From IMG/VR virus record IMGVR_UViG_3300032213_001405, positions 1-20,878 of that record: 20,878 nucleotides of DNA. One strand, 5' to 3'. Of the stretch, positions 3,587 to 20,878 are shown one piece after another. Positions within the stretch are counted from its first letter, which is position 1. The number at the start of each line of letters is the position of its first letter. The position numbers and the translations under genes were made by a program. Under the pieces are notes generated by a model. That model saw only the letters and a list, made by a program, of their open reading frames with translations. It ran no database searches and was not told the DNA's origin. Origin of the DNA: a virus.

Positions 3587-5335
3587 TTATATATCCCATC
3601 TAACAATGATGTTCATATCTACGTCATCTCTCTTTTCAAGTGGTGATGCAAGTTTACCTATTGCCAACAATTCATTGTTGTCATTGTATAAACCTACCGT
3701 TGTAATGTATGGATTGAAATATGAACTTGTAACAAAACTTCTCAATGAATATGTATTTGGATCGCCACTTTCTCTCAATGATACATTTTGAGAAAGATTG
3801 AATTCATTTTTACGAATTTTACATATCACTTGGTATTCATAAAAAGTAGTTGTACTTCTAAATTCACCACTGAATCCATTTGTTCTACCAGAATAATCAA
3901 AATTACCAGTTTGACCTAGTAATGAATTTGCATACTTAGGTCTTGGATCAGATACCAAGATTTCCCCTGTCTTGTAGAAGATATTTCCTATAACATTTGT
4001 TTGGTATGCATAACCCAAACCATAAGAATTATCAGCTAAATAAGAAACTTGATTGGAAGTGAGTGACTGATTGTAAATTCTGAATTCGTCTATTGATGCA
4101 GAAATCATTCCACTGTTTGTTCCGTTACCACCAATATACATTTCATGATTATTAGAAACATTCTTATTCATATCAAATGTTTTACTAGAATTCAATGTAC
4201 CGTTTAAATGTATGCTATATACACTTCCACTCTTCTGGCAAACAACATGATACCATTGACCAGGTGTTATTGCAGATGAACTTACAGTTACTATGTTTTC
4301 CGCCGATGACTGTTCAAACACAATTCTATGTGGAGTTGGACTTGAACTGTTTGTAATTTTTATGTCAAACGGATAATGTGATGACTTTCGTTGTACAAGT
4401 GTAGTGTTGTATTTTCCTACTTGTGTGTTAAATCCATCATCCAATACCATCGTATTTTTGTTCAAAATATGATTATATGTGTAATCATAGTTTGATTGAG
4501 ATGACGGCACATTTATCCAAAAACTAATTGCGAAAGAACTTTTTGGAAGAGGGTTGAAGTTTTCTCTCGATTTTGCGTGAAGATAACCACCATCCATTAC
4601 AATACAAGTTCCACTTGAAGAAACGGGAGATGTTGTTGGTATTCCTGGCTCAAATCTAATTTGTTTAGGTTTTACATAAACAACTTCGTTTTCTCTGTTA
4701 CTAAAATCATAAACGGTATCGGTCTGTTTGTTTCTAAAACCGTATTCTCTGTATTTCTCATTGAATCCGAGATAAATAAGACATCTATCATTTCCAATGA
4801 ACTTATTTGTGTCATATGATTCATCTATAACATTACCGTCGCCATCATCTTTCATCGTATATGAATGAGACGGATTTGTACTGTAATGACTCAATCTAAA
4901 AGATTTTGGTTTTATACCTTCACCAAAAACATCTTGTGGTATCTTAATTAGAGAACCACTTATTGATAAATTCAATTCAGTTTTTGGACTTAGTAGTATC
5001 GCTGGATTCTTATCATTTTTAAACTTGTTGTAGTATTTGTGATCTATCGAATACCACAATAACTTAGGATCTAAACTTTGAGTGGTAAATACTCTTCTAT
5101 AAAGAGAAGAGCTAAGGTTTGCAACTGCTCCATAATACAAATTGTTTTCTGGATAAAGTACTCGATATACATCAATACCTAGATTTTTGTAGAATGTAGA
5201 TCTTCCTGCAAATGTTTCGGTATCATCACTTGCAAACTTCCATAGTTTATTTGCCTGAAATGGTCTTACTTCGAAATCCCCACGCTTTAGACGTTTGTAA
5301 ATCAAAGATACAATATTTCCTTTTTGAAATGACAT
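3587..5335 (-). CDS. Virion protein with LamG-like lectin domain and paralog C-terminal module
   Basis: This 582-residue protein has three parts. Residues 1 to about 240 are not recognised. Residues about 243-437 look like a LamG / concanavalin A-like beta sandwich: FAISFWINVP near 268-277, a PGQWYHVVC strand at 358-366, an HLNG turn near 376-379, an MYIGGNG strand near 399-405, and IDEFRIYNQSLT at 415-426. Such domains usually bind glycans or act as structural spacers. Residues about 455-582 match the end of the four upstream paralogs, with YITTVGLYNDNNELLAIGKL at 543-562. This copy has an insertion with RESGDPN where the others read SNNPTF. The start overlaps the upstream TAA by 1 nt. It is probably a tail or baseplate decoration that meets the host surface; that role is inferred from the domain and neighbours. 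Confidence 0.8.
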   Translation of the reverse strand: MSFQKGNIVSLIYKRLKRGDFEVRPFQANKLWKFASDDTETFAGRSTFYKNLGIDVYRVLYPENNLYYGAVANLSSSLYRRVFTTQSLDPKLLWYSIDHKYYNKFKNDKNPAILLSPKTELNLSISGSLIKIPQDVFGEGIKPKSFRLSHYSTNPSHSYTMKDDGDGNVIDESYDTNKFIGNDRCLIYLGFNEKYREYGFRNKQTDTVYDFSNRENEVVYVKPKQIRFEPGIPTTSPVSSSGTCIVMDGGYLHAKSRENFNPLPKSSFAISFWINVPSSQSNYDYTYNHILNKNTMVLDDGFNTQVGKYNTTLVQRKSSHYPFDIKITNSSSPTPHRIVFEQSSAENIVTVSSSAITPGQWYHVVCQKSGSVYSIHLNGTLNSSKTFDMNKNVSNNHEMYIGGNGTNSGMISASIDEFRIYNQSLTSNQVSYLADNSYGLGYAYQTNVIGNIFYKTGEILVSDPRPKYANSLLGQTGNFDYSGRTNGFSGEFRSTTTFYEYQVICKIRKNEFNLSQNVSLRESGDPNTYSLRSFVTSSYFNPYITTVGLYNDNNELLAIGKLASPLEKRDDVDMNIIVRWDI

Positions 5336-6891
5336 TAGTTCATTCTTAATTTTACTTCAAAAACATATGACTTGTTAGGATTCTTCAAGAGTGGTCTTTT
5401 TAATTTTCCAATTGCTAAAAGTTCATTCTTTGAATTGTACAGACCAATTGACGTGATGTACGATACAGGGTTGTCATAGAAATAACTATAACGTATTTCG
5501 TTTTTACTACCACTCACATAAGTTGGATTGGAACTATAATTGTATTCGTCTGTATCTACTCTGCAAAAATACGTTTGAGTTAAAACTTTCTCGTTTGATC
5601 TAGCGAAGAATGAACCAGAGAAATTTCTACCAGATGTTATAGTGGAGGAACCACTTATTGATAAGAATAACTTGGAAATATTATCACCGTCTATTGATGC
5701 AGTTACAGTATTGAATGAACATGATTGATCTAAAACAACACCATCCAATACAATTACACCTAGTTTTGGATATACGAGACCCCATGCATTCGCATTATCT
5801 TCATCATATACACCATCACGTTTTGAACCAGATACGAGATAGTAAAAATCGTTTATATCGCTCTTATCTGTTGTTGATTGTTTTGAATCACCACTATCAT
5901 CTATCAAAGTATAAAGTACGCTAGATGATTGATTAACAGAGACATTACTACCAGTATTTACAAGTTGGTTAGAACTTCCAGAAAGAGGTGCCAGTGATAA
6001 TTCAAAATTACCAGCGTCCAATCTATCTTTCAATAAATCTCTATCCAACTGTATTATATAGACATACTGACCGTTTACTCCATTTTTAAATGGAAATTTA
6101 GATGAACCATTTTCAACGTCACCGATACATTCCATCAAATATTTTCGATACATTGTTTTTGATGGCATCAAATTTATTGTACCGTTCATAAGATATGAAC
6201 CAGAACCATTTATGTGACCAAATGATATATCGAACTGTTGATGAGAATTTGATGTATTTGGATTCCCATTATATACTGAAAGATAGTATTTGTCTTTTGT
6301 ATTGCCATTAGATGACGTAAAGAACGTATTAAGTGCATCGTCGTCACATTTCCATATGGAAACCGTTCTGTTTTTTCGTATTATTGCAGACTTATCTTTT
6401 ACAATTGAAAATCTTTTGAATGAATATGTTTGATTTTCATCTCTTGTTAGTTCATCAATTAGATTGTTTATCAAATCATCAAAAGATTCTGTGTTTTGAA
6501 AAGATATATCTGTTGCAACTGGGTATGAATACTTTGTAGTTGAATCTATTCTTGGTGCCGGCATTTCTCCACCAGTTCTTGCACCACCAACAAAGAATTT
6601 CTTTTCAGTATTTAGATAGTTTAGAAGTAGATTTTTTAATTCTCGTTGTATCTCCATAAGGATTTCTTTCGAGAACATATTTGCCTCAGCATTTATCTTT
6701 TGAACATTTTGTTGATACTGAAATTCTACACGATTTTCAAGGTCGGTAATACCTTCCACAAATGTTATCTTTGATATGTTAACACCGTAAAACTCAGAAT
6801 TTATATCATTCAAGAGTTCGTCAAATAACCTCTGTGCCTCATCTTTGACATAAGTTGCAGGGTCTGCAATATTCATGTAAGAAAGTGACAT
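5335..6891 (-). CDS. Virion structural protein, paralog 4, with helical N-terminus
   Basis: This 518-residue protein has a unique helical N-terminal part of about 190 residues, rich in Glu, Asn and Gln, with a likely short amphipathic helix near 55-95. From about residue 198 it carries the shared module, marked by ISFGHINGSGS, a YxxYLMxC segment, DRLDAGNFELSLAPL, LIDDSGD, YYLVSGS, WGLVYPKLGVIVLDG, NYSSNPTYVSGS and YITSIGLYNSKNELLAIGKL. I recall this module from structural proteins of marine T4-like phages, with no known biochemical role. The start lies 1 nt after the stop of the 886-residue paralog with a weak ribosome binding site, so it probably relies on coupling. The helical N-terminus may attach it to a specific virion site. 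Confidence 0.78.
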   Translation of the reverse strand: MSLSYMNIADPATYVKDEAQRLFDELLNDINSEFYGVNISKITFVEGITDLENRVEFQYQQNVQKINAEANMFSKEILMEIQRELKNLLLNYLNTEKKFFVGGARTGGEMPAPRIDSTTKYSYPVATDISFQNTESFDDLINNLIDELTRDENQTYSFKRFSIVKDKSAIIRKNRTVSIWKCDDDALNTFFTSSNGNTKDKYYLSVYNGNPNTSNSHQQFDISFGHINGSGSYLMNGTINLMPSKTMYRKYLMECIGDVENGSSKFPFKNGVNGQYVYIIQLDRDLLKDRLDAGNFELSLAPLSGSSNQLVNTGSNVSVNQSSSVLYTLIDDSGDSKQSTTDKSDINDFYYLVSGSKRDGVYDEDNANAWGLVYPKLGVIVLDGVVLDQSCSFNTVTASIDGDNISKLFLSISGSSTITSGRNFSGSFFARSNEKVLTQTYFCRVDTDEYNYSSNPTYVSGSKNEIRYSYFYDNPVSYITSIGLYNSKNELLAIGKLKRPLLKNPNKSYVFEVKLRMN

Positions 6892-6892
6892 A

Positions 6893-9553
6893 TTACCAAT
6901 TCAATCTAATCTTAATGAGTAGGTCTGTATCGAATGTTTTCTTTATTGGTTGACTTAATTTTGCAATAGCAAGTAACTCATTTCTACTGTTATACAAACC
7001 AACTGAACTTATATAAGTCTGTGGTTCTTTTATAAAGCACTTGTCAAATATTTGATTCGAAGATCCCGATACAAAAGTTGGGTTATTACTGTAATTGAAC
7101 AATGGTGCATATGCTCTTACAAAGTAATGACTCGTTGTTTTATACTTTACGTTTCTTGCAGTAAGGTAGTAATTTGTAGTTCTTGAACCAAATGGAGCAG
7201 CTGCGCCACTTATTGAAGTAAAGATCTTATATGAATTATCACCATTTAGATTACTTCCAGTTACCGTATTAAATCCTGCAATTTGGTTCAATCTCTTAGG
7301 ATGTAAGATAACGATTCCAAGATTTGGATAAACCTTACCATATGTGTTTACAGAAGAATCCTCATACTTTCCATTTGAAAGAGAACCAGATACTATATTG
7401 TATGAAACTAATGGATCACCATCACACGTTTCAAATTCATCAAAGTCATCTGAATCATCTACAAGTCTAATAATTTGCGAAGAACCAACTTTAACATTAC
7501 TTCCAGTGTGTAAGTTGTTTGGTACAGTACTTCCACTTAGATATGCAAGATTTATTTCAAAATTACCAGGATCTAATCTGTCTTTTATACCGTTTCTGTT
7601 AAAATTGATTACATAAATATCATCTGATTCTACGGTTGTGCTAGAACTTACGAATGAAAACTTAGGTAAAGATACTCCACCAGTTTCAGTTCTATTTTCT
7701 TCCAGACACATTAACTGATACTGTGAGTATATAGAATCCGATGGTGTTTTATTTGATTCTTCCGATTCAACGTATAAAGAACCCGATCCATTTATATGAC
7801 CATATGCAACCGCAAAGTACGGTATTTTACCACAAGTTTCACAATCTGTTACTTCGTAGTAATATTGATTAGACGAAGTTGGTTTAGTTGAACTTGTAAA
7901 GTAACACTCCATGTACTGACTATTGTCAAACAAACCTTGTGTTGAAGATTTTATTCTATTCGTTATTATATCACGTCTTCTATCGAATGGGTGATAAACT
8001 TCTGGACCATCTGATTTACATCTTTCATCTACAACCGGCATTCTGACACCAGTGTATGTTCTAGGATCTTTTATATCACCCTTTAATATTACACTGTAAT
8101 TACCTCTTCGTGTAAGTCCTCTGTAAAAACATCCCAAGTCTGCAATTTCTATTTCTTCACAACCGCATGACTCAAATAATTCAAGTTTTTTAGATGAGTT
8201 TATTACACCAACAGTTACACCAGCATTAGATAGTGCCTGTAACTCCGATGAGTTGTTTGTTAAAAATGCAGATGATAATCTTTCGCAACATGATGGATCA
8301 AATTCACGAGAAGATTCAATTATTCGGTCTTCAATAGGACCAGACAATTCTGGGTTTGAGTAGTCTATTATGTATTCGTTTGGAAGTACTGTTACTCTTA
8401 CAGAACCATTTGATAATCTGCAAAATGTAAATTTTGGAAATGCTGGGTAAAATACTTTTTGGTATCTTTCTATTTGTCCTGTTTCGCAAGCAAATCCAAA
8501 TCCAGCTAGATTTATACGATCACCATTGTTTAGTATCGTTGGTTGTCCGTCATTACCCGGAACAGATTTTATCATTCTAAAAAGTTCTGTTCTTGTAATG
8601 TCACCAGCTTCTCTTGAATACTGACTCCACTGTGTTAGTGTATTTACAGTTATCTGTTCAACACATATTGGATTTTTTGGTTGATCTGGTTCATTCACCG
8701 TCGGAATTACACAGTTACCGAGAGATTTACATTCGTCACCTTCAATAACAATACCTTCTTGTGGAGTAAATCCACCACCAGTGGTTGTATTTATTAGGAG
8801 ATACTCACCATTTGGAGAACTTCCAGCAGTTCTATATCTTGAAATATCAGTTATTCCAGGTATTAGTCCTTGATTGAAATTTATCCAATTAAGAAAAATA
8901 TCACTCGAATAATCTCCAAAGCAATTACCCCAATAATTTCCATTACCAGGCCATGCAAAATTTCTAGAACCATCAGTTAAAATAAGTGAAACAGATCTAT
9001 CTGGTTCATTTGGTCCTGCTATTGGAGTATATGGACCATTTTGTATGTCTTCATATGAAAAGTATTGTACTATTACAGGTCTTTTTCCAGTTCTTCCATT
9101 TGAATCAATACATTCTTCGTATGAAATTGCAGCTTTTGATCTTGCAAGTAGAATCCAACCTTTGAGGGTTGCTCCATTTGTCATTAATCTATTTGAGGAG
9201 AAATCTGGTTGCACCCAACAGCATTCATATAGTGGAGCTATAAGATAACACTGTGTACCCGTTAGATTTTTGTGATCTGGATATTGTGATAGATTTAGTG
9301 GATTACCATCTGCACCAACCATCACATTTTTTGTTTTTACAACTTGTGGGGTTCCAATATGATAGTTATATCGTAAGCATGGTAAATCATTACCGCTAAA
9401 TTCTCCACCTGATAATCCCATTATTGATGGATCAATTGAATTCCCATTTATTTGTATTGCATTTAGTGGGAGTCCTGTTATTGGATCGACTCCTTGACCC
9501 AATACTAGTCTTGTATTACCAACTCCGCTCGGATTATTTAGTTTGATAGCCAT
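6893..9553 (-). CDS. Large virion structural protein, paralog 3, with Cys-rich N-terminus
   Basis: This 886-residue protein is the longest of the paralog array. Residues about 560-886 are the shared module: YYYE at 564, VAYGHINGSGS, SIYSQYQLMC, DRLDPGNFEINLAYL, VYPNLGIVILHP and YISSVGLYNSRNELLAIAKL. Residues 1 to about 555 are not recognised. They are rich in Gly, Asn and Pro and hold about 18 cysteines, including C111-C112, C422-C423 and C463-G-C465. That is unusual here: the 350-residue and 241-residue neighbours have none and the 395-residue one has a single cysteine. Disulfides or bound metal would fit, but no known metal motif is visible. It may be a tail appendage or host-contact protein; the sequence does not prove that. 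Confidence 0.78.
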   Translation of the reverse strand: MAIKLNNPSGVGNTRLVLGQGVDPITGLPLNAIQINGNSIDPSIMGLSGGEFSGNDLPCLRYNYHIGTPQVVKTKNVMVGADGNPLNLSQYPDHKNLTGTQCYLIAPLYECCWVQPDFSSNRLMTNGATLKGWILLARSKAAISYEECIDSNGRTGKRPVIVQYFSYEDIQNGPYTPIAGPNEPDRSVSLILTDGSRNFAWPGNGNYWGNCFGDYSSDIFLNWINFNQGLIPGITDISRYRTAGSSPNGEYLLINTTTGGGFTPQEGIVIEGDECKSLGNCVIPTVNEPDQPKNPICVEQITVNTLTQWSQYSREAGDITRTELFRMIKSVPGNDGQPTILNNGDRINLAGFGFACETGQIERYQKVFYPAFPKFTFCRLSNGSVRVTVLPNEYIIDYSNPELSGPIEDRIIESSREFDPSCCERLSSAFLTNNSSELQALSNAGVTVGVINSSKKLELFESCGCEEIEIADLGCFYRGLTRRGNYSVILKGDIKDPRTYTGVRMPVVDERCKSDGPEVYHPFDRRRDIITNRIKSSTQGLFDNSQYMECYFTSSTKPTSSNQYYYEVTDCETCGKIPYFAVAYGHINGSGSLYVESEESNKTPSDSIYSQYQLMCLEENRTETGGVSLPKFSFVSSSTTVESDDIYVINFNRNGIKDRLDPGNFEINLAYLSGSTVPNNLHTGSNVKVGSSQIIRLVDDSDDFDEFETCDGDPLVSYNIVSGSLSNGKYEDSSVNTYGKVYPNLGIVILHPKRLNQIAGFNTVTGSNLNGDNSYKIFTSISGAAAPFGSRTTNYYLTARNVKYKTTSHYFVRAYAPLFNYSNNPTFVSGSSNQIFDKCFIKEPQTYISSVGLYNSRNELLAIAKLSQPIKKTFDTDLLIKIRLNW

Positions 9554-9559
9554 ATGGGA

Positions 9560-10612
9560 TTAGTAATCTATTTTAACTTTAACAACAACTTCCTTTTCAA
9601 ATGATTTTTGTACTGGTTTACTTAGTTTTGCAACCGCCAATAACTCTTGGTTATCGTCATATAAACCGATACTCGTCATATAAACAATTGGATCATTGAA
9701 CATTGATTCATACTTTATAGAACTTAAACTTCCAGTTAAGAAAGTTGGATTTGTACTGTAATTGTACTCTCCATTATAAAGTCTTACATAATAATACTGA
9801 GATGCAATTACTTCACTTGTTCTACCTTGAAATGCATTCGATGCAGTGTTAAACAATATTGAAGCACTTATCGAGGTGAACAATCTGAATGCGTTATTTT
9901 GATTAATACTACCAGTTGATGGTAATCTTCTTGTATTAAATGAAGAAGATGCATCCAATGCCTTTCCATTCAATACGATAACGCCATTGTCTGGATAAAA
10001 TAATCCCCAAGGCGTTGTATCTGATGTGAAAATTCCATTAGAAATGGATCCACTTCGTATATTATAAACACGACCACCTTGTTGTGTATATTCAATCGTT
10101 GAAGCACCAGAGTCATCAATCAAAGTAAATACATCTGCACCAGTTGAAATAGATGCAGAACCTACTGCATTCAATTTTCCAATTGTTAATTGCCAATTAT
10201 TCGTATCAACTCTGTCTTTGTATCTAGAACGATTTACATTTATGATGTAAACGTGTTCGCTAGTTTCCCCATTTGAAAACGTAAATAAGTTAGTTCCAGC
10301 ATCCAACAAAAGTTGCTTGTATTGAGAATATATTGATCTAGTTGGTAAATCGTCTATGTTTCCAGTACCTCTATCGGAACCACTACCCTTTGTGTCACCA
10401 TATGCAACACTAAATTGAGGTTCTGCACCAGTAGAGTTGGAAGCACTATTATATATCTCATAATAGTATCGTTTTTGATTTGTAGACTGATAAGAGCTTG
10501 TGAAAATTCTTATCAGTGATGCTTGACCACCAGACCATAGAGGAGAAGTTATAATTTCCTTCTGACCACCTAATATGTCTCTATCTTCAACGAATGGTGT
10601 AAATGTTGCCAT
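9560..10612 (-). CDS. Virion structural protein, paralog 2, short form
   Basis: This 350-residue protein is nearly all shared module, with about 45 residues ahead of it. Visible marks are YYYEIYNSAS near 48, FSVAYGDTKGSGS near 64-76, SIYSQYKQLLLD, VYIINVNRSRYKDRVD, LIDDSGAS, GLFYPDNGVIVLNG, NYSTNPTFLTGS and YMTSIGLYDDNQELLAVAKL near the end. It has no cysteine. The protein is Ser/Thr/Asn-rich and predicted beta, with no signal peptide or membrane segment. It begins 4 bp after the 395-residue paralog ends and has a poor ribosome binding site. The family is familiar from marine T4-like phage virions, with unknown function. Confidence 0.82.
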   Translation of the reverse strand: MATFTPFVEDRDILGGQKEIITSPLWSGGQASLIRIFTSSYQSTNQKRYYYEIYNSASNSTGAEPQFSVAYGDTKGSGSDRGTGNIDDLPTRSIYSQYKQLLLDAGTNLFTFSNGETSEHVYIINVNRSRYKDRVDTNNWQLTIGKLNAVGSASISTGADVFTLIDDSGASTIEYTQQGGRVYNIRSGSISNGIFTSDTTPWGLFYPDNGVIVLNGKALDASSSFNTRRLPSTGSINQNNAFRLFTSISASILFNTASNAFQGRTSEVIASQYYYVRLYNGEYNYSTNPTFLTGSLSSIKYESMFNDPIVYMTSIGLYDDNQELLAVAKLSKPVQKSFEKEVVVKVKIDY

Positions 10613-10616
10613 AATT

Positions 10617-11804
10617 TTAGTATTCTAATCTTACTGTTACTGATAACTCACTGTTTGGTGTTTTCTTGATTGGTTGACTCATCTTTGCGATTGCAAGTAA
10701 TTCACCAGCGTCATTATACATACCAATGGATGTGATATAAACCGCTGGATCATTTATGAATGTTGTATCCTTGACTTGATTACGTGATCCACTTACAAAA
10801 GTTGGATTGTTTGAATACATTGCTAACATTGTTGGAGCACCAGTCGGTGATGTGTTGGAAACGGAAGAACCGATTCTAGCAGGTACTCGTATGTAATAGT
10901 ATGTTACATCTTTTGTAGAAACACTTCTTGCACTAAATCCGTATCCAGTTCCAAATGCTCCAGAACCACTTATTGATTTGAATAATCTGAATGCATTGTT
11001 TCCGTTTACATTACTACCTGTTATAGTTCCAAGACTTGCCGATGCATTAATCTTTGTTCCATCAATTAGTATCACTCCTCTGTCCGCGTAAACGAGTCCA
11101 TAGTAATGAGGTGCGGATGGATTGTGAACACCGTTTGTTATAGAACCACTGACAAGATTTCTTACATTAGATGGAAGACCACCATATCCAAGTGAATCGT
11201 TTGCATCACCAGAGTCATCAATCAACTTAATTACTAAGTTTGATGCCGATACTGTGAGTGCGCTGGCCGTTGCAGCTGAATTCATCACAGCAAGTGATAA
11301 TTCAAAATTACCAGGATCAAGTTTATCTTCAAATCTGTCACGTGCAATGTTTACAGTATAAAATTGATTAATAACAGTACCGTTTGCCAACACAAATGAT
11401 GATGGTGCACCGTTTGCAGCAGAGTCTGCGTTTGCATCTCCGTCCAACAACATAGTTTTGTACTGTGAATAAATTGCTCTTGATGGTGTGTCACCTACTT
11501 GCCCACCTGAATTTGCTGAGCCTGATCCTGAGATGTGACCGTATGCAACAGAAAACATGACTTCATCACCACAAACAAGAGACGCAGAACTCCAAATTTC
11601 ATAGTAGTATGACTTTGAGTTAGAATTCTGGGTTGAACTTGTGTGGAAAGTAAGTAACTCTCCCAAAGTCGCTGACCAAAGACCCTTTGTTATAAGTTTC
11701 TTTTCTGTATCAGGTTCTTGACCGGCAAGAGCGTGTTCAAACACTTGGTAGAGACCAAAATCACCACCACCTGATCCGATTCGTTGTCTTAATTCTGTTG
11801 CCAT
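10617..11804 (-). CDS. Virion structural protein, paralog 1, with strong ribosome binding site
   Basis: This 395-residue protein has about 62 residues before the shared module. Marks include YYYEIWSSAS near 66, MFSVAYGHISGSGS, AIYSQYKTMLLDGD, VNIARDRFEDKLDPGNFELSL, LIDDSGDA, YGLVYADRGVILIDG, MYSNNPTFVSGS and YITSIGMYNDAGELLAIAKM. The N-terminus begins MATELRQRIGSGGG. It is the first of the array to be transcribed. It has GAGG 8 nt before the ATG, better than any other paralog, so it may be the most abundant. That would suit a protein used in many copies, with the longer paralogs as minor variants at special sites; this is inference. Confidence 0.82.
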   Translation of the reverse strand: MATELRQRIGSGGGDFGLYQVFEHALAGQEPDTEKKLITKGLWSATLGELLTFHTSSTQNSNSKSYYYEIWSSASLVCGDEVMFSVAYGHISGSGSANSGGQVGDTPSRAIYSQYKTMLLDGDANADSAANGAPSSFVLANGTVINQFYTVNIARDRFEDKLDPGNFELSLAVMNSAATASALTVSASNLVIKLIDDSGDANDSLGYGGLPSNVRNLVSGSITNGVHNPSAPHYYGLVYADRGVILIDGTKINASASLGTITGSNVNGNNAFRLFKSISGSGAFGTGYGFSARSVSTKDVTYYYIRVPARIGSSVSNTSPTGAPTMLAMYSNNPTFVSGSRNQVKDTTFINDPAVYITSIGMYNDAGELLAIAKMSQPIKKTPNSELSVTVRLEY

Positions 11805-11839: not shown

Positions 11840-12565
11840 TTATACTGTTGTTGTATCTGCGTTTCTTACTGTAACTGGTATTACAACTCTACCACCAGTT
11901 TCATTTCCTGTAACAATAATCTTTGTAGTCTTTGTAACAGTTCCTTCGAGACGAGAAACGTCAGGTAATGTTTCCAAAGTAATTGTAATCTTTGAACCCT
12001 TACCAGAACCAGGAATGACAATTGCAGATTCAGAAGTTGCTGTTCTTGATGTCATTGTGCTATTTGTTTGGATAGGAGTTGCATTATTATCAGATGTTGT
12101 TGCTGTTGTAAACATTGTAGCATAAGATGCATCGAGAAGTGTTACAGTATATCCTGCTGCTGAATTCAAAATTGGATCCAATCCAGGATTTGAACCACCG
12201 TAGTAGAATGTCTCAATGTTGAATGATTGAGGATCACCAGGACGTACTGTCAATGATGTTGCACTTGCTCTTACGAAAGGAATCGCTTTAACACCACGTG
12301 GTAGTGTTACAAGTTTATACTTCATTGATTGTGTTTCGTCTGGAACTGCCTCTGTAATTGGCATATTTTCAATAACTACACCGTAGTAGTCTGAGCCAAG
12401 TGGGTGTGCTGGGTTCCACAAATCGTAATCTATTTCATCATCAGCTAATGCAAACTGTGTGATGTTAAATCCGTTTGCAGCACCTCGGCCTTGTGCCAGA
12501 AGTTCTCTTCCACGTTTTGTAAGAATTGCATCTACCGTAATAGTGCTGTTATCTAAATAACCCAT
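11840..12565 (-). CDS. Virion structural protein, 241 residues, conserved in marine T4-like phages
   Basis: The N-terminus MGYLDNSTITVDAILTKRG, followed by GRELLAQG and ITQFALADDEIDYDLWNP, is a pattern I recall from small structural proteins of marine T4-like phages. The rest is Thr/Ser-rich and beta-like. It includes an Ig-like stretch from about residue 100 (SLTVRPGDPQSFNIETFYYGG) to the end, which finishes with a VTGNETGGRVVIPVTV strand. There is no cysteine, signal peptide or membrane helix. The gene has the best ribosome binding site in the window and sits between the baseplate block and the paralog array, in the longest gap of the window. A highly expressed virion component is likely; its exact place in the particle is unknown. 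Confidence 0.78.
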   Translation of the reverse strand: MGYLDNSTITVDAILTKRGRELLAQGRGAANGFNITQFALADDEIDYDLWNPAHPLGSDYYGVVIENMPITEAVPDETQSMKYKLVTLPRGVKAIPFVRASATSLTVRPGDPQSFNIETFYYGGSNPGLDPILNSAAGYTVTLLDASYATMFTTATTSDNNATPIQTNSTMTSRTATSESAIVIPGSGKGSKITITLETLPDVSRLEGTVTKTTKIIVTGNETGGRVVIPVTVRNADTTTV

Positions 12566-12609: not shown

Positions 12610-15600
12610 TCATCTTGTTTCTAAATTTCCACCACGATTGGATGTATTGTAGAAAATTTGTTCTGAATCAACAATATAAACTTCAATAACCGGCTTACCG
12701 TCTGGACTATTTCTCGTTGAAACGTTTATATCCGGTCCAACAAGTTTACTACCTAAGAATCTGTGGTTTTTCAGTCCCTTTGTTAAATTCTCTTGATTAC
12801 CAATCGAAGAACCAGTCAGTGACGCAGATGTATATATATTAAATCGTTGTTCAATAGAACTGGTGTAATATAAATAGTATGTACTATAAAATCCATCTTT
12901 TCTATACGAATCTATTTGACTAAATACGGAATTTATTCTGTAAGTTTGGTTACTTTGTGTTACCCACCCATCACCATATCCAGTATTTGTACTTCCAGAT
13001 TTTACTATATTGGATCGTTTATATGTTGAACTAGCACTTACTGTCAATTCAATATCATCTTGGATGTTATTATATCCACCAAATGCCTTACCGAGTTTTG
13101 TTGAAACCGATGAAGCATAACTATTGTATGTACCATTTGTACTCGATACAATATCATCTTTAACAGAAGTTTCTTTTACATTATAAACAGTTTCAAGTTT
13201 TTCAGGAGATGTATGTTGAATAGAACTTTCTTTTGATGTGTAATCAACATTAAATGTCTTATACAGATTTTCATCTATCAGTGTTTCCTTATTTGTAGTC
13301 TCCGAATTAAATGAACTATAAATTGGAGTTGGTAAGGAAGTTTCTTTGTTGGTATATTCTACTTTGAATGATTTAGAAACTGGTAAAGAAGTAAAGGCTT
13401 GGTTTGTGTATTCCGTAGGTAATACTTCTTTTTCCAAATTATAATCACCTTCAATTCTATCAAGTTCTCCTTCATTTTCTTCAAATCCAATAAGAATAGT
13501 ACCTTCGTTAACATTGTACGTTCCGAATGCATTTATAGAAGAAGAAAGTTCGTTTGATGGAATACTGTTGTTTGGTTCACCGTTTACATTTCTACCTATA
13601 CCACCAACCTTAGAACGTTCCAAAACATTTGGTTGGATAACAACACCAAGAATAGGATTACTTCTCGCAGGTAATGTTTGACGTATTTGATCGAATATAC
13701 TAAAATCAAAAATTGATATTAGTTTCAGATATGCAGTAAAATCATTCTTGTTAGAATACTTTTTCCAGTAATCTCTCGATAACCATTTCAAGTTTGGATA
13801 TTCATTTTTTGTAATATTACTGTAATCGCCAATATAATCATCCAACTGAGTATATCCAAGACTTTCATATATGTCTTCGTTGATTATATCCTGTGGTGAA
13901 AACGCAACCATCAATTTATCTGAATCATTTGAGTAAAGATCAAAGGATGATACTTCTGATGTTCTATCTTTACTAAGTCCACCTATTAATGAACCAGAAT
14001 CAATTCTAATTTTTTCTGCATATGGAGTGTTATTTGCCAGGGTGGCAACTTCCATATAATACGTTTCTGTTATAGATTCAAACGATGACGAAGTGAATCC
14101 ATTAAATGTTGCGATTTTAGGGGATGTTTCAAAATAAGTTTGATTTTGATTTGGGTGTGAACTAGATATACTAGTTGTTACCGCAACATCAAATTTTTGC
14201 CAGAACTTAAATTGTGCCTGTAAATCATAGAATGAGGAAGTTTCTGTATTTCCATTGTATGATCTAGGTGCAAGTACATGATTATCAAATGAACTTGTTT
14301 CTAAAACATTTGACCAATATCTTAATTCAAATACTGAACCCGATAATATCTTTGATGTTTGGGAGTTTGAACCAGATCCAACATATAATGTACCATTAGA
14401 GACCCATGCCCTGTTTTTATTTGGCTCGGAACCACCATTAATCGTTACACTCGATGATCTTTCTACTGCAATTTTTCCGTACTTTGCAGTCTTTAAAATA
14501 AGATCATATGTTTGGTTGATTGAAGTTGAATCGTTTCTAGTATTTCTTCTAATAAGAATGTTTAGAGGAACATCGTCATACAAATATTCATCAGTTATAG
14601 AAGCAGACTTGTATGATGATCCATCGCCAATATAAAATGTCACAGAACCCTTTTCTGGGTCTGTTCCGTTCTTATTTACAGTTACAAACCAATCAACACG
14701 TGATCCAACGTTTTTCTGTAAAAGTGTTTGGATTGGATCTTGTGCATAATCGTATGTTAATTCTGGTTCCATTTTCCATCTAAATGAGATGGCATCTGGG
14801 TACTGGAATGTGTTTGTTTCATTTTTTACACGTTCCCACGGAGACGATATATAACTTTGGGTCGGTGGTTGTGGGTAACTACCCTTGAAGTTCAAGTAGT
14901 ATGTTTGCTTTTCCCACTCCGCTCTTGGTGTTAATCCCAAGTCAGCATTATCTGGTCCGCCAAATTCTCTTATTGACAAGAGTGTTTGTGGTATTCCATA
15001 TGCAGAAAGAAGAGCCTTTATACCACGAGCAGTTCCTTTTGATTTGTAGATATAAGGAAGGTTGTTGAAAATACGTCTCCAAACTTCCTTTGTTCTTTCT
15101 TCATAGGATTTTGCCAAGTATTTGTTTGTTGTTGTTTTACCAGTCCAAATTGGCTCACCACTTCCACTAATTCCGAATGCGTATTCCCAAAGATCCTTTG
15201 CCTGTGTTCCGTGTGAAAGTGTCCATCCTAAGTTTTTAGTTGCCTCATAAATAAGATCTTGTGAAAGACCATCCTTTGGATGTTCTTCTCTAAGATTCTT
15301 TTTCATAATATGATCAGTGTAAAGATAGATAATATCAAAGTGATGACCAACCATATTAATGAATGTCAAAAATTGATCGTTATTCTCATCTTCTCTTAGA
15401 TATTCTGGTATAGCTTTGTTAAGTGAGTTATAATTTTTTAGATCATAGTCAATTGACTTTGTAATCAGATCATTATACCACTGACTTACTTCATTTGAAC
15501 TACTAGGATATAGTTTGTACTTACCTTCTTTTGTTGCAATACTATAATCACTACCAGTTGTTTGATATTTTGGATAAGGAGTTATAGATGCACTTACTTG

Positions 15601-16710
15601 TGAGGTATAATAGTTACTCGCAGTAGTTTCATAGTATAACCACTTTTCAAAGTTATCAAATCCAGATATTGTTTTATCTCTTAGAGATTTTATCTTTATC
15701 TTATTTGAAGAGACAGAACCAGTAAATGTATCTAGTAGAGTAAGTTGATTGTTATATTGTTCTATCAATTCAATCTTGTAAACAAAATTATCCACTCTAT
15801 CTTCTGCTGAGGAGTAGAAAATAAAGTTTTTAAACTCCCGATAGTCTACATTCAATTGAACTGGTAAGTTACTAGATGAAATATATCTATCTAATATTTC
15901 CTGAGAGGTTTGTACATTAGATGAAAGTATTTCGTTCCAAGACTTATATTCCGTTTCACTCGTTGTCCAATAATCATAGTCTACTTCGAAGTTTGGACCT
16001 TTAAGTGATGGTATTTGTGTTTTTATTTCTTCTGGGATATAATGTATTGTATCAATGAATGGTTTCAAAAGTTGTTCTTGAACCCAACATTGCAAATACA
16101 AATCCAAATCAGATGGTAATCCTTCGTATAGCTTAACAAAGAAGCTAAATTTACTACCGTCAGATACAAGATTTATTACATCAATTATCTTATTTTCACC
16201 AAAGTTAAGTACAACATTTGGTAAAATCTCTTTTGATTTGAGGTATGATAAAACAAAACTAGATAAGAGATTCTGATCTGTTTGTGATGTTCTATCAACC
16301 AACGTTAATTCAATTTCTGTTCTATCGGGTGATATTTTCGATATGAACATTTTTGGTGAATCATAAGAACCAATTATGTTTCTTAAAAAGTTGTAAACAA
16401 CTTTGTATTCGCCAGGTGGATTTTCACTTTTATTGAAATCTCTATGTAAATCCAAAGATAGTACAGGTGCAGAAGAATTATCCGATGATGATTCCAATTT
16501 CCAAGTATCAACATCATATAGTGATGTAAGATATGCACCGTTTGGTAAGAAGGTGTGGAATTCAACTATCGTATCATCTTTGGAAACAAGAGGTACAAGA
16601 GGTGGTGTTTTTTTCAATAACTTCAAATCATCCAATGATGTCCTAACACCTCTAATTGGTAAATTAGACTCTAATATCTCATCAATATTTTTGTATTCAA
16701 AGTTTGCCAT
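12610..16710 (-). CDS. Large baseplate protein with P2 gpI / T4 gp7-like motif, LamG-like domain and 19-residue repeats
   Basis: This 1366-residue protein is the longest in the window. Residues 1 to about 430 are not recognised. Residues about 455-590 hold a helical segment with VGHHFDIIYLYTDHI, then NNLPYIYKSKGTARGIKALL and AYGIPQTLLSIREFGG, spanning L551 to G585. The KSKGTxRGIxALLxxYGIPxxLLxIREFGG pattern is typical of phage tail proteins of the P2 gpI group, to which T4 gp7 is related. Residues about 635-810 resemble a LamG/concanavalin sandwich (FRWKMEPEL, VFELRYWSNVL). Residues 1096-1189 are a five-copy repeat. The C-terminus, with HRFLGSKLVGPDINV and DGKPVIEVYIVDSEQ, resembles ends I recall in marine phage structural proteins. 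Close linkage to gp6 supports a wedge role, since gp6 and gp7 bind each other in T4. The gp7 equivalence is inferred. Confidence 0.78.
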   Translation of the reverse strand: MANFEYKNIDEILESNLPIRGVRTSLDDLKLLKKTPPLVPLVSKDDTIVEFHTFLPNGAYLTSLYDVDTWKLESSSDNSSAPVLSLDLHRDFNKSENPPGEYKVVYNFLRNIIGSYDSPKMFISKISPDRTEIELTLVDRTSQTDQNLLSSFVLSYLKSKEILPNVVLNFGENKIIDVINLVSDGSKFSFFVKLYEGLPSDLDLYLQCWVQEQLLKPFIDTIHYIPEEIKTQIPSLKGPNFEVDYDYWTTSETEYKSWNEILSSNVQTSQEILDRYISSSNLPVQLNVDYREFKNFIFYSSAEDRVDNFVYKIELIEQYNNQLTLLDTFTGSVSSNKIKIKSLRDKTISGFDNFEKWLYYETTASNYYTSQVSASITPYPKYQTTGSDYSIATKEGKYKLYPSSSNEVSQWYNDLITKSIDYDLKNYNSLNKAIPEYLREDENNDQFLTFINMVGHHFDIIYLYTDHIMKKNLREEHPKDGLSQDLIYEATKNLGWTLSHGTQAKDLWEYAFGISGSGEPIWTGKTTTNKYLAKSYEERTKEVWRRIFNNLPYIYKSKGTARGIKALLSAYGIPQTLLSIREFGGPDNADLGLTPRAEWEKQTYYLNFKGSYPQPPTQSYISSPWERVKNETNTFQYPDAISFRWKMEPELTYDYAQDPIQTLLQKNVGSRVDWFVTVNKNGTDPEKGSVTFYIGDGSSYKSASITDEYLYDDVPLNILIRRNTRNDSTSINQTYDLILKTAKYGKIAVERSSSVTINGGSEPNKNRAWVSNGTLYVGSGSNSQTSKILSGSVFELRYWSNVLETSSFDNHVLAPRSYNGNTETSSFYDLQAQFKFWQKFDVAVTTSISSSHPNQNQTYFETSPKIATFNGFTSSSFESITETYYMEVATLANNTPYAEKIRIDSGSLIGGLSKDRTSEVSSFDLYSNDSDKLMVAFSPQDIINEDIYESLGYTQLDDYIGDYSNITKNEYPNLKWLSRDYWKKYSNKNDFTAYLKLISIFDFSIFDQIRQTLPARSNPILGVVIQPNVLERSKVGGIGRNVNGEPNNSIPSNELSSSINAFGTYNVNEGTILIGFEENEGELDRIEGDYNLEKEVLPTEYTNQAFTSLPVSKSFKVEYTNKETSLPTPIYSSFNSETTNKETLIDENLYKTFNVDYTSKESSIQHTSPEKLETVYNVKETSVKDDIVSSTNGTYNSYASSVSTKLGKAFGGYNNIQDDIELTVSASSTYKRSNIVKSGSTNTGYGDGWVTQSNQTYRINSVFSQIDSYRKDGFYSTYYLYYTSSIEQRFNIYTSASLTGSSIGNQENLTKGLKNHRFLGSKLVGPDINVSTRNSPDGKPVIEVYIVDSEQIFYNTSNRGGNLETR
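13144..13425 (-). repeat. Five-copy coding tandem repeat, 19-residue (57-bp) period
   Basis: Within the 1366-residue protein (residues 1096-1189) the Lys of the KE[TS] core recurs at 13345, 13288, 13231 and 13174, exactly 57 bp apart. The last four copies each fill 19 residues and read roughly [ST]F[KN]V[ED]YT[NS]KE[TS]S; the final copy is the most divergent. The first copy is 18 residues and keeps EYTN then a TSL ending. The DNA copies have diverged, so this is a protein-level repeat and not a recent slippage product. Confidence 0.8.
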
Positions 16711-16712
16711 AA

Positions 16713-17987
16713 TTAAAGTATTCTACCTCCAGGACTACCAGCACCACGAGCACCACCACTATTAGTTGATGCAGAACCAGTTGCACTAGTTGGGCCTCCT
16801 ATTGTGCCTCCTCTTCCAGTACCACCACTAGTTCCACCCGTTGTACTACCACCAGTTGAACTATTTCTTAATGAGTTTATAGTAGATTGTAATGCAGCTA
16901 TCTGTGCCTTCAATGCAGCAATTTCACTATCTTGTGATGCATTTTTACTAGCACCTTGTGATGATATATTTTGAGATAGTGATGACAATGCGTTATTGAT
17001 GTTATTAATTTGATTTGATACACTAGATTCAAGAGATGAGATGGTTGTTGATATTGTTTCATTCAATTGATTTATAGTCTCATCTTTCTGTCTTAGTTCC
17101 TCGTCTTGTTGTAACATCTCACCAGACAGTGTGTCTATAAATGACTCATGTTCTATTTGAGCATCTATATAAGATTGAACTTCTTCTTGTTTTACTTCTA
17201 TAATCTTTTCCAATCTATCAACCTTAGCATTCAATCCAGTTATAGAATTTTCATTTTCTATTGTGAGTTTTGTCAAATCAGTCAAGAATGTATCTATATC
17301 CGTTACATTTGCAATTTTATCCAACAAGTTTATTTCGGCAGAAACTGCTTCTGAAAGTGATTGAAAGTTTCTATCAATTACATAATCAAAATCTTTGAAG
17401 TAATATCTTTCATCTAATATTGGCAATCTGTATCTTCCGCTGTTTTTATACAAGTTCTCAAAAGTTACAGCCCTATCGTATTCGTCTCTCAAATTTTTAT
17501 CGAAATTTATAGAGCCCAATTCATTTAGAGATACCGAAAGTTTTTGTTGTATAAGTACTTCAAGTCTTGATTTAAGTTGTTCTGATGGTATAACACCGTT
17601 AGCAGATCCGTTTGGATCTATGAGTTTTCTTGCAATGTAATAATCAAATGTATCTAAGTTATATCTAGAAACACTATCCAATGTATTTTGTATTACAGTT
17701 ATATCTGATGGATTTGTTGCTAACAGTTTTTTTATCTTGTTTTGTTCTTCTACAAAGTTTTTAACAACTTCATATTCATATGATTGTTTGAAGGATTTTA
17801 ATCTTTCAAGTAAAGTACCACCAACAGAATCCTCATCAACCTTTTTTAGAGGTATAGATTTAGAATCAAAATAGTCATAGAATTCCTGAACAGTTTCAAA
17901 CGAAATATTTTTGTAAGTATCTAATATTCCAGCTGACTGTAATGGATCTATATTTTCTATGAAAAGAAACTCTGATAGACTAATCAT
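16713..17987 (-). CDS. Coiled-coil virion protein with Gly/Ser/Thr-rich C-terminal tail
   Basis: This 424-residue protein has a structured N-terminal part (about 1-235) that I do not recognise. A long coiled coil follows from about 240 to 374, with heptad-like Leu/Ile spacing in VDRLEKIIEVK, LRQKDETINQLNE and SEIAALKAQIAALQSTI. The last 50 residues are almost only Gly, Ser, Thr, Ala and Arg. Such a layout suits a fibrous trimer or a flexible tether in the tail. Its ATG overlaps the upstream stop by 4 bp, and its stop is 2 bp before the 1366-residue gene, so it is made together with the baseplate proteins. T4 fibritin (wac) is also a coiled-coil trimer, but I see no foldon-like end, so I do not use that name. 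Confidence 0.72.
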   Translation of the reverse strand: MISLSEFLFIENIDPLQSAGILDTYKNISFETVQEFYDYFDSKSIPLKKVDEDSVGGTLLERLKSFKQSYEYEVVKNFVEEQNKIKKLLATNPSDITVIQNTLDSVSRYNLDTFDYYIARKLIDPNGSANGVIPSEQLKSRLEVLIQQKLSVSLNELGSINFDKNLRDEYDRAVTFENLYKNSGRYRLPILDERYYFKDFDYVIDRNFQSLSEAVSAEINLLDKIANVTDIDTFLTDLTKLTIENENSITGLNAKVDRLEKIIEVKQEEVQSYIDAQIEHESFIDTLSGEMLQQDEELRQKDETINQLNETISTTISSLESSVSNQINNINNALSSLSQNISSQGASKNASQDSEIAALKAQIAALQSTINSLRNSSTGGSTTGGTSGGTGRGGTIGGPTSATGSASTNSGGARGAGSPGGRIL

Positions 17988-19156
17988 CTAATTACCTTGA
18001 AGTAATAATTGTTATCAAAAGTTTGTACCGTATCTCCACCGCTTGTTTCTACCTTAATGACAACCCTGTAAAATCTTTCTGGTTGAAATGAATTCATCCA
18101 AAGATTAAAATAGTTTCCATCGGAGTCGCAACTTAACTTAGTTCCAGTTGTACTAAATGGTATAACTATCTCGTCAGTGTGTGCATCTCTTATCTCATAG
18201 TAAGATGAGGTTGGTAGATAATAATTCTTAGTGTAATAAGATTCTGTTGTATAAGTTTTTGCAGGGTATCTATTATTTGAAAATACTCGTATTCTTGGTT
18301 TTTCATTTTCAGAGTAGTACTTTTTCAACTTTACATTTATCAAAAGATCATTAACACTGACTGGTGATAAACTTCCCGTTGTGAATCTAGAATCATCCCA
18401 TACCACGTGTAATCTTGGAACATATATCGTATTACTATCTGCCCCGAAAAATTTAAGACTATTAAAAGTTTCATTTGATGATTCAGCGGCATTACTAAAC
18501 TTTACGATGAATCCATCATTTTGAAATCTACCAGAACCCGTGATCCACTTTTTAACAATGGAAGTCACGTCCATGTATATATCTGATGATTCGAATGAGA
18601 AAGATTGAGTACACTCCGCACCGTTAAATGTCCACCATGTACCACCACCTTTGTTGGTAAAGTATGACGAAGTTACATTTGCTTGAAGATTTACTCCAAA
18701 CAATGAATTAGCATCTACCCACAAATCGGAAATTTCATCCCATTCATATGATTCTATCGAAGGTGGTATATTCCATTGTGTACCCACCGATCTAGATGAT
18801 TTGTATTTCCACGATACACCGTCGGTTGTTATTGGTTTGTTATTGTATCTTCCACTTCCATTTGTCCATGAACCACTTAACGGATATGCATAAACTACAT
18901 AATCCTGTGGTATTTCTTTTACTTCAACAGATCTAAGTGATAGATAGTACTTGGCACTACCAGAATTTATCTTACCAGAGTTTACTCTTGATTCTATATC
19001 TGATGTATCGAACTTTACCAAAATTCTACTGTTGTAGATTGATGATGTCCCAACGAGTTGATGTGAAAGTTCAAGTACAGAATCTAAACCAGTGTTTAGT
19101 GACTCTGTTCTTTCATAAATCGTTGCATCCCTTTGAGCATATATTGTGTATATCAT
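17984..19156 (-). CDS. Virion protein with DNRLRE-type beta domain, next to gp6
   Basis: Residues about 3-253 of this 390-residue protein follow the DNRLRE (CBM96-like) beta-jelly-roll pattern. ATIYERTESLNTGL at 11-24 is followed by SRILVKFDTSDI at 43-54, a SAKYYLSL strand, VVYAYPLSGSW near 87-97, IYMDVTSIVKKWITG at 193-207, GFIVKFSN near 215-222 and a closing PRLHVVW strand. Cellular members often bind polysaccharide. A Trp-rich insert lies at about 128-176. Residues 270-390 form a second beta-rich part ending in YYFKVIR. The start overlaps the gp6 stop by 4 bp (ATGA), with GAGG 8 nt upstream. Position after gp6 suggests a baseplate component; gp8 is a candidate by position only, and I cannot show homology. 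Confidence 0.72.
   Translation of the reverse strand: MIYTIYAQRDATIYERTESLNTGLDSVLELSHQLVGTSSIYNSRILVKFDTSDIESRVNSGKINSGSAKYYLSLRSVEVKEIPQDYVVYAYPLSGSWTNGSGRYNNKPITTDGVSWKYKSSRSVGTQWNIPPSIESYEWDEISDLWVDANSLFGVNLQANVTSSYFTNKGGGTWWTFNGAECTQSFSFESSDIYMDVTSIVKKWITGSGRFQNDGFIVKFSNAAESSNETFNSLKFFGADSNTIYVPRLHVVWDDSRFTTGSLSPVSVNDLLINVKLKKYYSENEKPRIRVFSNNRYPAKTYTTESYYTKNYYLPTSSYYEIRDAHTDEIVIPFSTTGTKLSCDSDGNYFNLWMNSFQPERFYRVVIKVETSGGDTVQTFDNNYYFKVIR
17995..17998 (-). promoter_or_regulatory. Ribosome binding site of the coiled-coil virion gene
   Basis: AAGG on the minus strand lies 7 nt before the ATG at 17987, inside the end of the preceding gene. Confidence 0.45.
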
Positions 19157-20878
19157 CCGAATGCCCTCACTCTACCAATAATATCATTATCTGGGTATTT
19201 AACTTCGAATATCGAAGGATCAAGAGATGGGAAGATTATTCCATCTTTTGTTGCTTGGTCTAAATTGTATGCGTTAGAAGAATAACCAAGAGAAGGATCT
19301 GTTAGATTTGTAAATCTTACATTTACAACTGTTTGAACACCTTCTACTTTATCAAGTTCTGTATAAACATTGCTTATCACAATAGGTTGATTTATTTGCC
19401 ATTTTTTAATGTCAAAATATTTCTTCAATCTATCAATACAACGAAGAACAACTTGATTTCCGTTTTGATCTGGCATCGTGATGATGTCAAATTCAATACC
19501 AACATTTATTATGTATGCGTCTTTAATGTTGATAGCATCTGTTAACATTCTATGATAATTCAGATATGTTTTTAAGTTATCTTTTGTGGCATCATTTATT
19601 CTCGTCAACTTGTTATCAGCATCAAATCCCAAGACGTAAAAGTTTAGTGCTAATGGATTTGAAAGTCTATCACTATTGTAAATTGATTCTTCTGTAAGTT
19701 GATCGTCTTTTGTTATGTATGCCTTTGCAATAGAACCATACTTTTGTGGAAGACTGTATGCTCGTATGATATAGTCTTCTTTTGTTACTGCTCGATTTTG
19801 AGAAGCAAAGTATGCCAAAGCATTTTGACGTATTTCATTTATATCTTCACCGTCTTTACCACCAGTTGATGGTTCTGGGTTTGTTACGGCCAAACTTCCA
19901 ATTACTTGATTGTAAATTGTTCTGTTTAAACCAGTTTCATCTATGAGTAACGTTTTAGATATTACACGGTTTATCGTATCACTTGGAACATTGTCTTTAA
20001 TACCACCACCAACTGTGTAGTAAACTGTTAGTGTTGTATTATTTGGTGCAAGTCCATATGTTTTAGTGTACAAGAAGTTTGAAGGATCTATATCAAGAGA
20101 AGCAGCAGACTCAATACCAGTCAATGAAGATCCAACTAAGTCTGGATTTGGTATGAGTATTTCATCATCAAGATTAGATACACCAGCACCAAATTGAATC
20201 TCTGTTATTCCGTTTCCAGTTTGTCTACTTATAAATCTTCTTGAAATCTTTCTTAACTTCAATAGATATGGAGTTTCATTTCGATATGAAGATAGTTGTC
20301 TATCATTTCTAGGTATGTTTGGTGTTGGTTCAAATATAGTATCTTGTGCCAAATATGGAACATGATACCACTTATTACCATCTGAATCAATAGCATAGAG
20401 TATATCTATGATATTTGGTTCTTCTAAGTTTATCTTATCGTATGGCTTAGGATCTACAAATTCATACTCGGCTGTTCGTATTACACCAGATACTGCATTT
20501 ACAGATTTTTTCAGAAGGTAGTATGTAGGTTCTTTTGAGATGTTGTCATACTCAAACACAGAAACTTCTGTTGGATCAATACTACTACTGTGTTTAAAAT
20601 CAACATAGTCTGTTGTTCTAAACTGAGAAGTTACATTGTTATTATCTGATGCAACAACCATACCAGGCTCTATTGCAAATGCATATGAGAAGTCTGGTCT
20701 ATTATTTGTACCACTACCTATTGACGGTACAAGTTGGAATACATCAAGTTTAACATTTGAGGCTATTCTTGTTTTTGGTTTGTATCCAAGAGATTGTGCA
20801 ATGTTTAGAATATTTTGACGCTCAGTAGATTGGAGTATCAATGATTCTTGAAGTGTTGTATCTGTATAATACGATAGA
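19153..20878 (-). CDS. 6: Baseplate wedge protein gp6-like (baseplate J family), 5' end off the window
   Basis: The frame is open to the right edge, so the true start lies outside. The upstream in-frame residues YYTDTTLQESLILQ followed by LNIAQSLGYKPKTRI match the family N-terminal region that ends in a LGYxPRS-like motif. A TTG at 20841 is an unlikely start because homology continues above it. The central GGKDGEDINEIRQNALAYF followed by QNRAVTKEDY is the hallmark of the T4 gp6 / P2 gpJ baseplate family. An EIQFGAGV segment and AVTNPEPSTGG lie before it. At least 574 codons are visible. In T4, gp6 forms the inner ring of the baseplate and drives its change of shape during contraction. The stop overlaps the start of the DNRLRE gene, implying coupled translation. 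Confidence 0.93.
   Translation of the reverse strand, partial: LSYYTDTTLQESLILQSTERQNILNIAQSLGYKPKTRIASNVKLDVFQLVPSIGSGTNNRPDFSYAFAIEPGMVVASDNNNVTSQFRTTDYVDFKHSSSIDPTEVSVFEYDNISKEPTYYLLKKSVNAVSGVIRTAEYEFVDPKPYDKINLEEPNIIDILYAIDSDGNKWYHVPYLAQDTIFEPTPNIPRNDRQLSSYRNETPYLLKLRKISRRFISRQTGNGITEIQFGAGVSNLDDEILIPNPDLVGSSLTGIESAASLDIDPSNFLYTKTYGLAPNNTTLTVYYTVGGGIKDNVPSDTINRVISKTLLIDETGLNRTIYNQVIGSLAVTNPEPSTGGKDGEDINEIRQNALAYFASQNRAVTKEDYIIRAYSLPQKYGSIAKAYITKDDQLTEESIYNSDRLSNPLALNFYVLGFDADNKLTRINDATKDNLKTYLNYHRMLTDAINIKDAYIINVGIEFDIITMPDQNGNQVVLRCIDRLKKYFDIKKWQINQPIVISNVYTELDKVEGVQTVVNVRFTNLTDPSLGYSSNAYNLDQATKDGIIFPSLDPSIFEVKYPDNDIIGRVRAFG
19165..19168 (-). promoter_or_regulatory. Ribosome binding site of the DNRLRE-type virion gene
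   Basis: GAGG on the minus strand lies 8 nt before the ATG at 19156, inside the end of gp6. With the ATGA overlap it allows both re-initiation and independent initiation. Confidence 0.5.

Follow-up and report, generated by a model that had tools for sequence, protein, structure and literature searches.

What does a phage gain from five consecutive, related genes placed beside those of its baseplate, and how did such a set arise? The stretch of DNA analyzed here (the window) is an IMG/VR record of 20,878 bases, whose minus strand carries baseplate genes and then a five-gene module array; we call the array genes M1 to M5. The order of transcription is gp6, 390 aa, 424 aa, 1366 aa, 241 aa, M1, M2, M3, M4 and M5, and downstream of M5 lie an endonuclease-like gene, a primase and an SbcD/SbcC-like gene. 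The gp6-type baseplate wedge protein (19153..20841, minus strand) was recognized by a PHROGs match, with an uncertain start codon at the window edge, and could be aligned to T4 gp6 over 435 columns (hhalign, 96.6% probability, E 5.7e-10). Records with one module and records with four share the order gp6, 390 aa, 1366 aa, 241 aa, module(s), M5, endonuclease, primase and SbcDC. The gp6 match and this gene order set the array among baseplate genes.

The genes between gp6 and M1 are all on the minus strand. The 390 aa protein (17984-19156), encoded between the gp6 and 424 aa genes, gave a sub-threshold match to CBM96, a carbohydrate-binding module (24.2 bits versus a cut-off of 26). The 424 aa coiled-coil-like protein (16713-17987), between the 390 aa and 1366 aa genes, is poorly conserved, with 33-40% identity in six of eight close-relative pairs and a varying length, while its neighbours are conserved. 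The 1366 aa protein (12610..16710) is a candidate for a large wedge or periphery protein, BW3-like by position only; its identity with T4 gp7 was rejected, as profile comparison gave no match. The 241 aa gene (11840..12565) was directly upstream of the module gene or genes wherever it was seen. At the far end of the window, an ORF at 1-2196 has metallo-phosphoesterase and SbcC matches together, so that SbcD and SbcC are apparently fused; its relatives are ~1050 aa long.

The original prediction was of five tandem paralogs of 395, 350, 886, 518 and 582 aa, and we recovered them as five minus-strand ORFs with blastp similarity: M1 (10617..11804), M2 (9560..10612), M3 (6893..9553), M4 (5335..6891) and M5 (3587..5335), with a spacing of -1 to 6 bases between genes. 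A module of ~350 residues is common to M1 to M4, which are 34-40% identical over it (blastp E between about 1e-51 and 8e-79). The C-terminal YITSIGLY...ELLAIAKL segment, described earlier as a closing motif of all five proteins, was found in each of the five. By these comparisons the sharing among the five proteins is far beyond chance, and it indicates that M1 to M5 are true tandem paralogs, descended by duplication. The further suggestion of five different N-termini was overstated. M2 is the module alone (blastp, predicted structure and a tree in which it groups with single-copy genes of other phages) and M1 is a bare module, matching from residue 6 (blastp and tree). Added N-terminal domains occur only in M3, which has a Cys-rich part of 511 extra residues before the module (blastp and Cys count), and in M4, which has a shorter one of 154 extra residues (blastp).

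M5 had been thought to keep only the last ~130 residues of the module, and its blastp match to M1-M4 is confined to the last 39-114 residues. This view proved wrong. The C-terminal part of M5 matched a profile of 104 modules with 99.2% probability (hhalign, E 1.4e-19), and its N-terminal part matched the middle of the module weakly (E 0.00087, versus 0.24 for a reversed control). Between them, at about residues 243-433, lies a laminin-G insert (PF13385; 4037..4609, minus strand; Pfam and predicted structure) that scored 64.7 bits against a curated cut-off of 27.6; a laminin G match at E 0.01 was present in all 40 M5 rows scanned, out of 65 listed. Three MAG contigs and a scan that took a jumbo-phage module as its query gave 46 M5 ORFs of 300-400 aa, or 21 once near-copies were removed. 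Alignments of these short M5 relatives (~335 aa) span 256 columns with the module (E 4e-20) and 296 columns with the M5 family of the window (E 1.6e-55), the laminin-G region appearing in the latter as a gap, and a Pfam scan of three of the short proteins found no laminin G. Different folds in the shared regions had been raised as a possible objection, and the AlphaFold2 models of M2 (pLDDT 89.4, pTM 0.83) and M5 (pLDDT 85.3, pTM 0.78) show the opposite when compared by element order: the order of strands and helices is identical, with laminin G between two strands of M5, and several of the best BFVD matches are common to both models. Because the laminin-G-free relatives align across both families and the predicted structures share their element order, M5 is best described, from alignment and prediction, as an entire, divergent module with laminin-G inserted mid-way. 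We read the toxin matches of the insert as reflecting a laminin-G-like fold in common, and a set of caspase matches as chance, both being uninformative on function.

Our preferred explanation, which we consider probable, is that the array arose when a single gene for a connector of the baseplate periphery was expanded in place in the genome of a Far-T4-like myophage, with a module that would work like T4 gp8 or the BW3TFN connectors. The gp8 candidacy was drawn from gene position, before structural ranking. By position only, the module gene belongs to the baseplate wedge cluster, where it follows gp6 and the gene of a large protein, and it corresponds in size and position to T4 gp8, which has 334 aa and follows gp6 and gp7. 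When the M2 model was realigned to 990 PDB chains, a Klebsiella phage gp8 homolog (Z 4.9) and T4 gp8 (Z 4.8) ranked first and second, with the third chain at 3.8; apart from these two, phmmer finds no distinct gp8 sequence in the PDB (E 0.001). The alignments to gp8 cover 75 and 81 residues with rmsd 2.8 and 3.5 and are weak matches; with so few residues aligned, Z scores under 5 may reflect a common arrangement.

Sequence searches gave a different picture. Profile-profile comparison (hhalign) found no link between the module and gp8 (probability 0.2-0.6%), and a Pfam scan of 104 module rows found no match to PF09215 or PF25691. None of four complete related genomes matched these gp8 families, with T4 as a control matching PF09215, a result that fits either a diverged gp8 or its replacement. 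At the sequence level the identification of the module as gp8 was rejected, every comparison being negative; gp8 survives as a weak structural lead, and we do not claim membership of the T4 gp8 / BW3TFN family. The missing sequence link would also suit a module that serves as an attachment domain of the baseplate or tail fibre and has a fold of its own, unrelated to gp8 but filling the same slot, on which the variable parts would still be displayed. Foldseek likewise returned no PDB match to the M2 model with E below 0.001, and its BFVD matches are unnamed phage proteins. The two leading ranks of gp8 by Z, together with the same size and similar gene position of T4 gp8, argue against such a domain, which we regard as a real but doubtful possibility. 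A P2-type tail-collar or fibre N-terminal domain, suggested by a motif only, was rejected for the module since no Pfam match was found in the window proteins or in 104 module rows (25 of 29 families listed).

Conservation of the module and of the parts added to it was tabulated for nine chosen locus pairs. Between the window and L009, its closest relative among the matches listed, identity is 81% for gp6, 72% for M2 and 55% for M1. For M3 it is 63% in the module and 29% in the N-terminal part (residues 1-511; 8021..9553, minus strand), which is fast-diverging by pair comparison and has 16 Cys; for M4 the values are 57% and 22%, the N-terminal part here being residues 1-154 (6430..6891, minus strand). 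Shuffled controls for the N-terminal parts of this pair gave mean identities of 21.1% and 23.4%, so the M4 N-terminal part is at chance level between the window and L009, as shuffled sequence scores alike. It has no detectable similarity to the M4 N-terminal parts of the other compared records either, and its length ranges from 58 to 637 residues across rows. The module was conserved above the N-terminal part in nine of nine pairs for M3 and eight of eight for M4, one M4 pair having a truncated module. Cys counts are 9-19 in the M3 N-terminal parts of 20 out of 20 rows and 0-3 in those of M4; since Cys-richness is kept throughout, the M3 N-terminal part is not freely swapped. Ig-like Pfam matches (Cep192_D4, ASH, HYDIN) were obtained for no more than 5 of the 31 N-terminal parts, with none in that of the window M3. 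Relaxed constraint could be an alternative cause of the quick N-terminal divergence. The idea of a docking module bearing variable parts is upheld as regards the conserved module, the diverging N-termini and the fit with a gp6-led cluster; the docking itself we infer.

The IMG/VR scan returned at least 563 relatives among at least 599 candidate stretches, of which the best 80 (77 loci) were kept. Among the matches listed, the 241 aa gene and the M5 gene are on the same contig in 71 of 81 full-module records. These 71 bracketed records hold one module plus M5 in 48 cases, two modules in 3, three in 2 (the fourth being truncated), four plus M5 as in the window in 17, including Microcystis phage Mel-JY01, and seven in 1; the counts, again among the matches listed, favour arrays of the window type and were made without dereplication (L021 and L062 resemble each other, for instance). 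In L070 (3639-13945), and also in L069, seven consecutive module genes extend from the 241 aa gene to M5. A module gene in L241 (2872-4065) is apparently split into ORFs of 212 and 137 aa, perhaps by a frameshift or an assembly error. A scan of genome contigs for the module found three MAG contigs and no more; these module genes (L227, L228 and L229) are on contigs in Roseiflexaceae, Flavobacteriaceae and Gammaproteobacteria MAGs, likely phage contigs binned with bacteria.

The main tree was built from 93 modules in 41 records and took in 15 of the 17 records with four modules, 22 of the 48 with a single one and five of the seven L069 modules. In this tree a single branch separates each of positions 1, 2, 3 and 4 of the 15 array records from all other rows (SH-aLRT 99, 99, 100 and 100), and position 2 clusters with single-copy genes, of which L063 is nearest among the matches listed (SH-aLRT 96). 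The two-copy loci L019/L038 and L022 represent duplications within the single-copy part of the tree, and expansion therefore occurred repeatedly; L069/L070, with seven copies, adds another case, its rows being long-branched and of unsure placement. The tree thus indicates that the module expanded at least twice more, separately from the window-type array. In a tree rooted on M5, position 4 comes first, but this tree has long branches and came from a quick search, and no duplication order was drawn from the rooting. By the tree, the array genes are old duplicates, orthologous by position across phages, in an old and conserved arrangement. Ancient orthologs without a duplication history had been put forward as a counter-case; the genes are indeed old and orthologous by position, but they are duplicates. 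A copy number of 1 to 7 could also reflect neutral drift through recombination, in which the extra copies would have no separate roles. We think this very unlikely, because the four positions occur together and in order in the 17 bracketed window-like records among the matches listed, each forming its own clade, and because of the contrasting Cys contents of the M3 and M4 N-terminal parts. Very unlikely, too, is a role as adhesins, either secreted or decorating the head, with an incidental gene location in the tail cluster: the M5 laminin-G domain and the Ig-like matches in some N-terminal parts would suit adhesins, but the conserved series of genes that begins with gp6 and ends with the modules, and M1 and M2, which are bare of any added binding domain, speak against them.

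Several known phages carry the same genes. Mel-JY01 (PP395634, 172489-181435) has all five array genes in the order of the window and with its neighbours, annotated as five 'hypothetical proteins'; the N-terminal parts of its M3 and M4 have no detectable similarity to those of the window. In Rhodothermus phage RM378, the Far-T4 reference, p128 is a full module (hhalign 99.9%, E 2e-33) adjoining the 241 aa-like p129. The searches made found one module copy in RM378, whose other neighbour, p127, is another 241-like protein and not M5; two 241 aa-like proteins (L095, 11761-12378 and 13635-14342) thus flank its module gene. The Far-T4-like affiliation of our phage is suggested by the module and 241 aa protein shared with RM378, the window being without gp23, gp20 and gp17. 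Flavobacterium phage vB_FspM_immuto_2-6A has a module and an M5 homolog (gp106 and gp105) after homologs of 1265 and 219 aa, with one module only and an M5 of 357 aa; unlike in the window, tail fiber and tail spike genes follow M5 in the immuto phages. Our literature searches found no paper on the array. Far-T4 phages are described in PMC4360716 and PMC7198788, and the main text of PMC4360716 does not mention the baseplate or paralogs.

T4 gp8 is a dimer in contact with gp10, gp7 and gp6 (PMC3004832), and gp8-fold proteins are reported as dimers linking receptor-binding proteins to the baseplate; in A511 the BW3 protein threads a chain of them, and Milano has two dimer-forming gp8-fold paralogs, gp125 and gp127 (PMC10811340). 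The module resembles T4 gp8 and the BW3TFN connectors (A511 gp105, Milano gp125/gp127) in a weak likeness to the gp8 fold, in size and in its place following gp6 and a large protein. The window array differs from them in the lack of a sequence link, in having five paralogs versus one or two, and in its added N-terminal parts and laminin-G insert.

Under the connector-expansion model, the module would be a bead that packs, in the manner of the T4 gp8 / BW3TFN connectors, on the wedge beside gp6 and the 1366 aa protein. The added parts (the Cys-rich part of M3, that of M4 and the laminin-G of M5) would face outward, where they may make contact with the surface of the host or anchor fibres. Single-module phages would use one bead in repeated copies, and the window phage would have specialised beads at differing places on the baseplate. 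The 1366 aa protein offers a possible string for such beads, with hypothetical contact, in the form of degenerate tandem repeats of ~19 residues near its C-terminal third (residues 1082-1210; 13081..13467, minus strand; p 0.003, the least possible with 300 shuffles). Repeats with p below 0.01, mostly spaced by 17-19, were present in 26 of 60 homologs tested out of 68, the other eight lacking the anchor motif or sufficient length. A more specific version is a mixed chain, in which up to five gp8-like connectors would sit on the ~19-residue repeats, giving one baseplate distinct, separately evolving host-contact parts, and in which one-module relatives would have identical beads. We consider this unlikely. 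Repeat strength showed no relation to module number (significant in 13/37, 3/4, 2/3 and 6/16 proteins, grouped by module number).

What would be new here is an amplified, domain-loaded baseplate connector, with gp8 as its candidate family. If the proposed expansion is correct, one virus, in which several of the five copies have acquired extra, fast-evolving or sugar-binding-like domains, may display several host-contacting parts, and an aquatic T4-like phage lineage would diversify its baseplate by connector amplification and the addition of new domains, not at the tail-fibre tips alone. Likely host-contact genes would then be named among proteins now annotated as hypothetical, and the natural series of 1, 2, 4 and 7 copies would be suited to testing copy number against adsorption.
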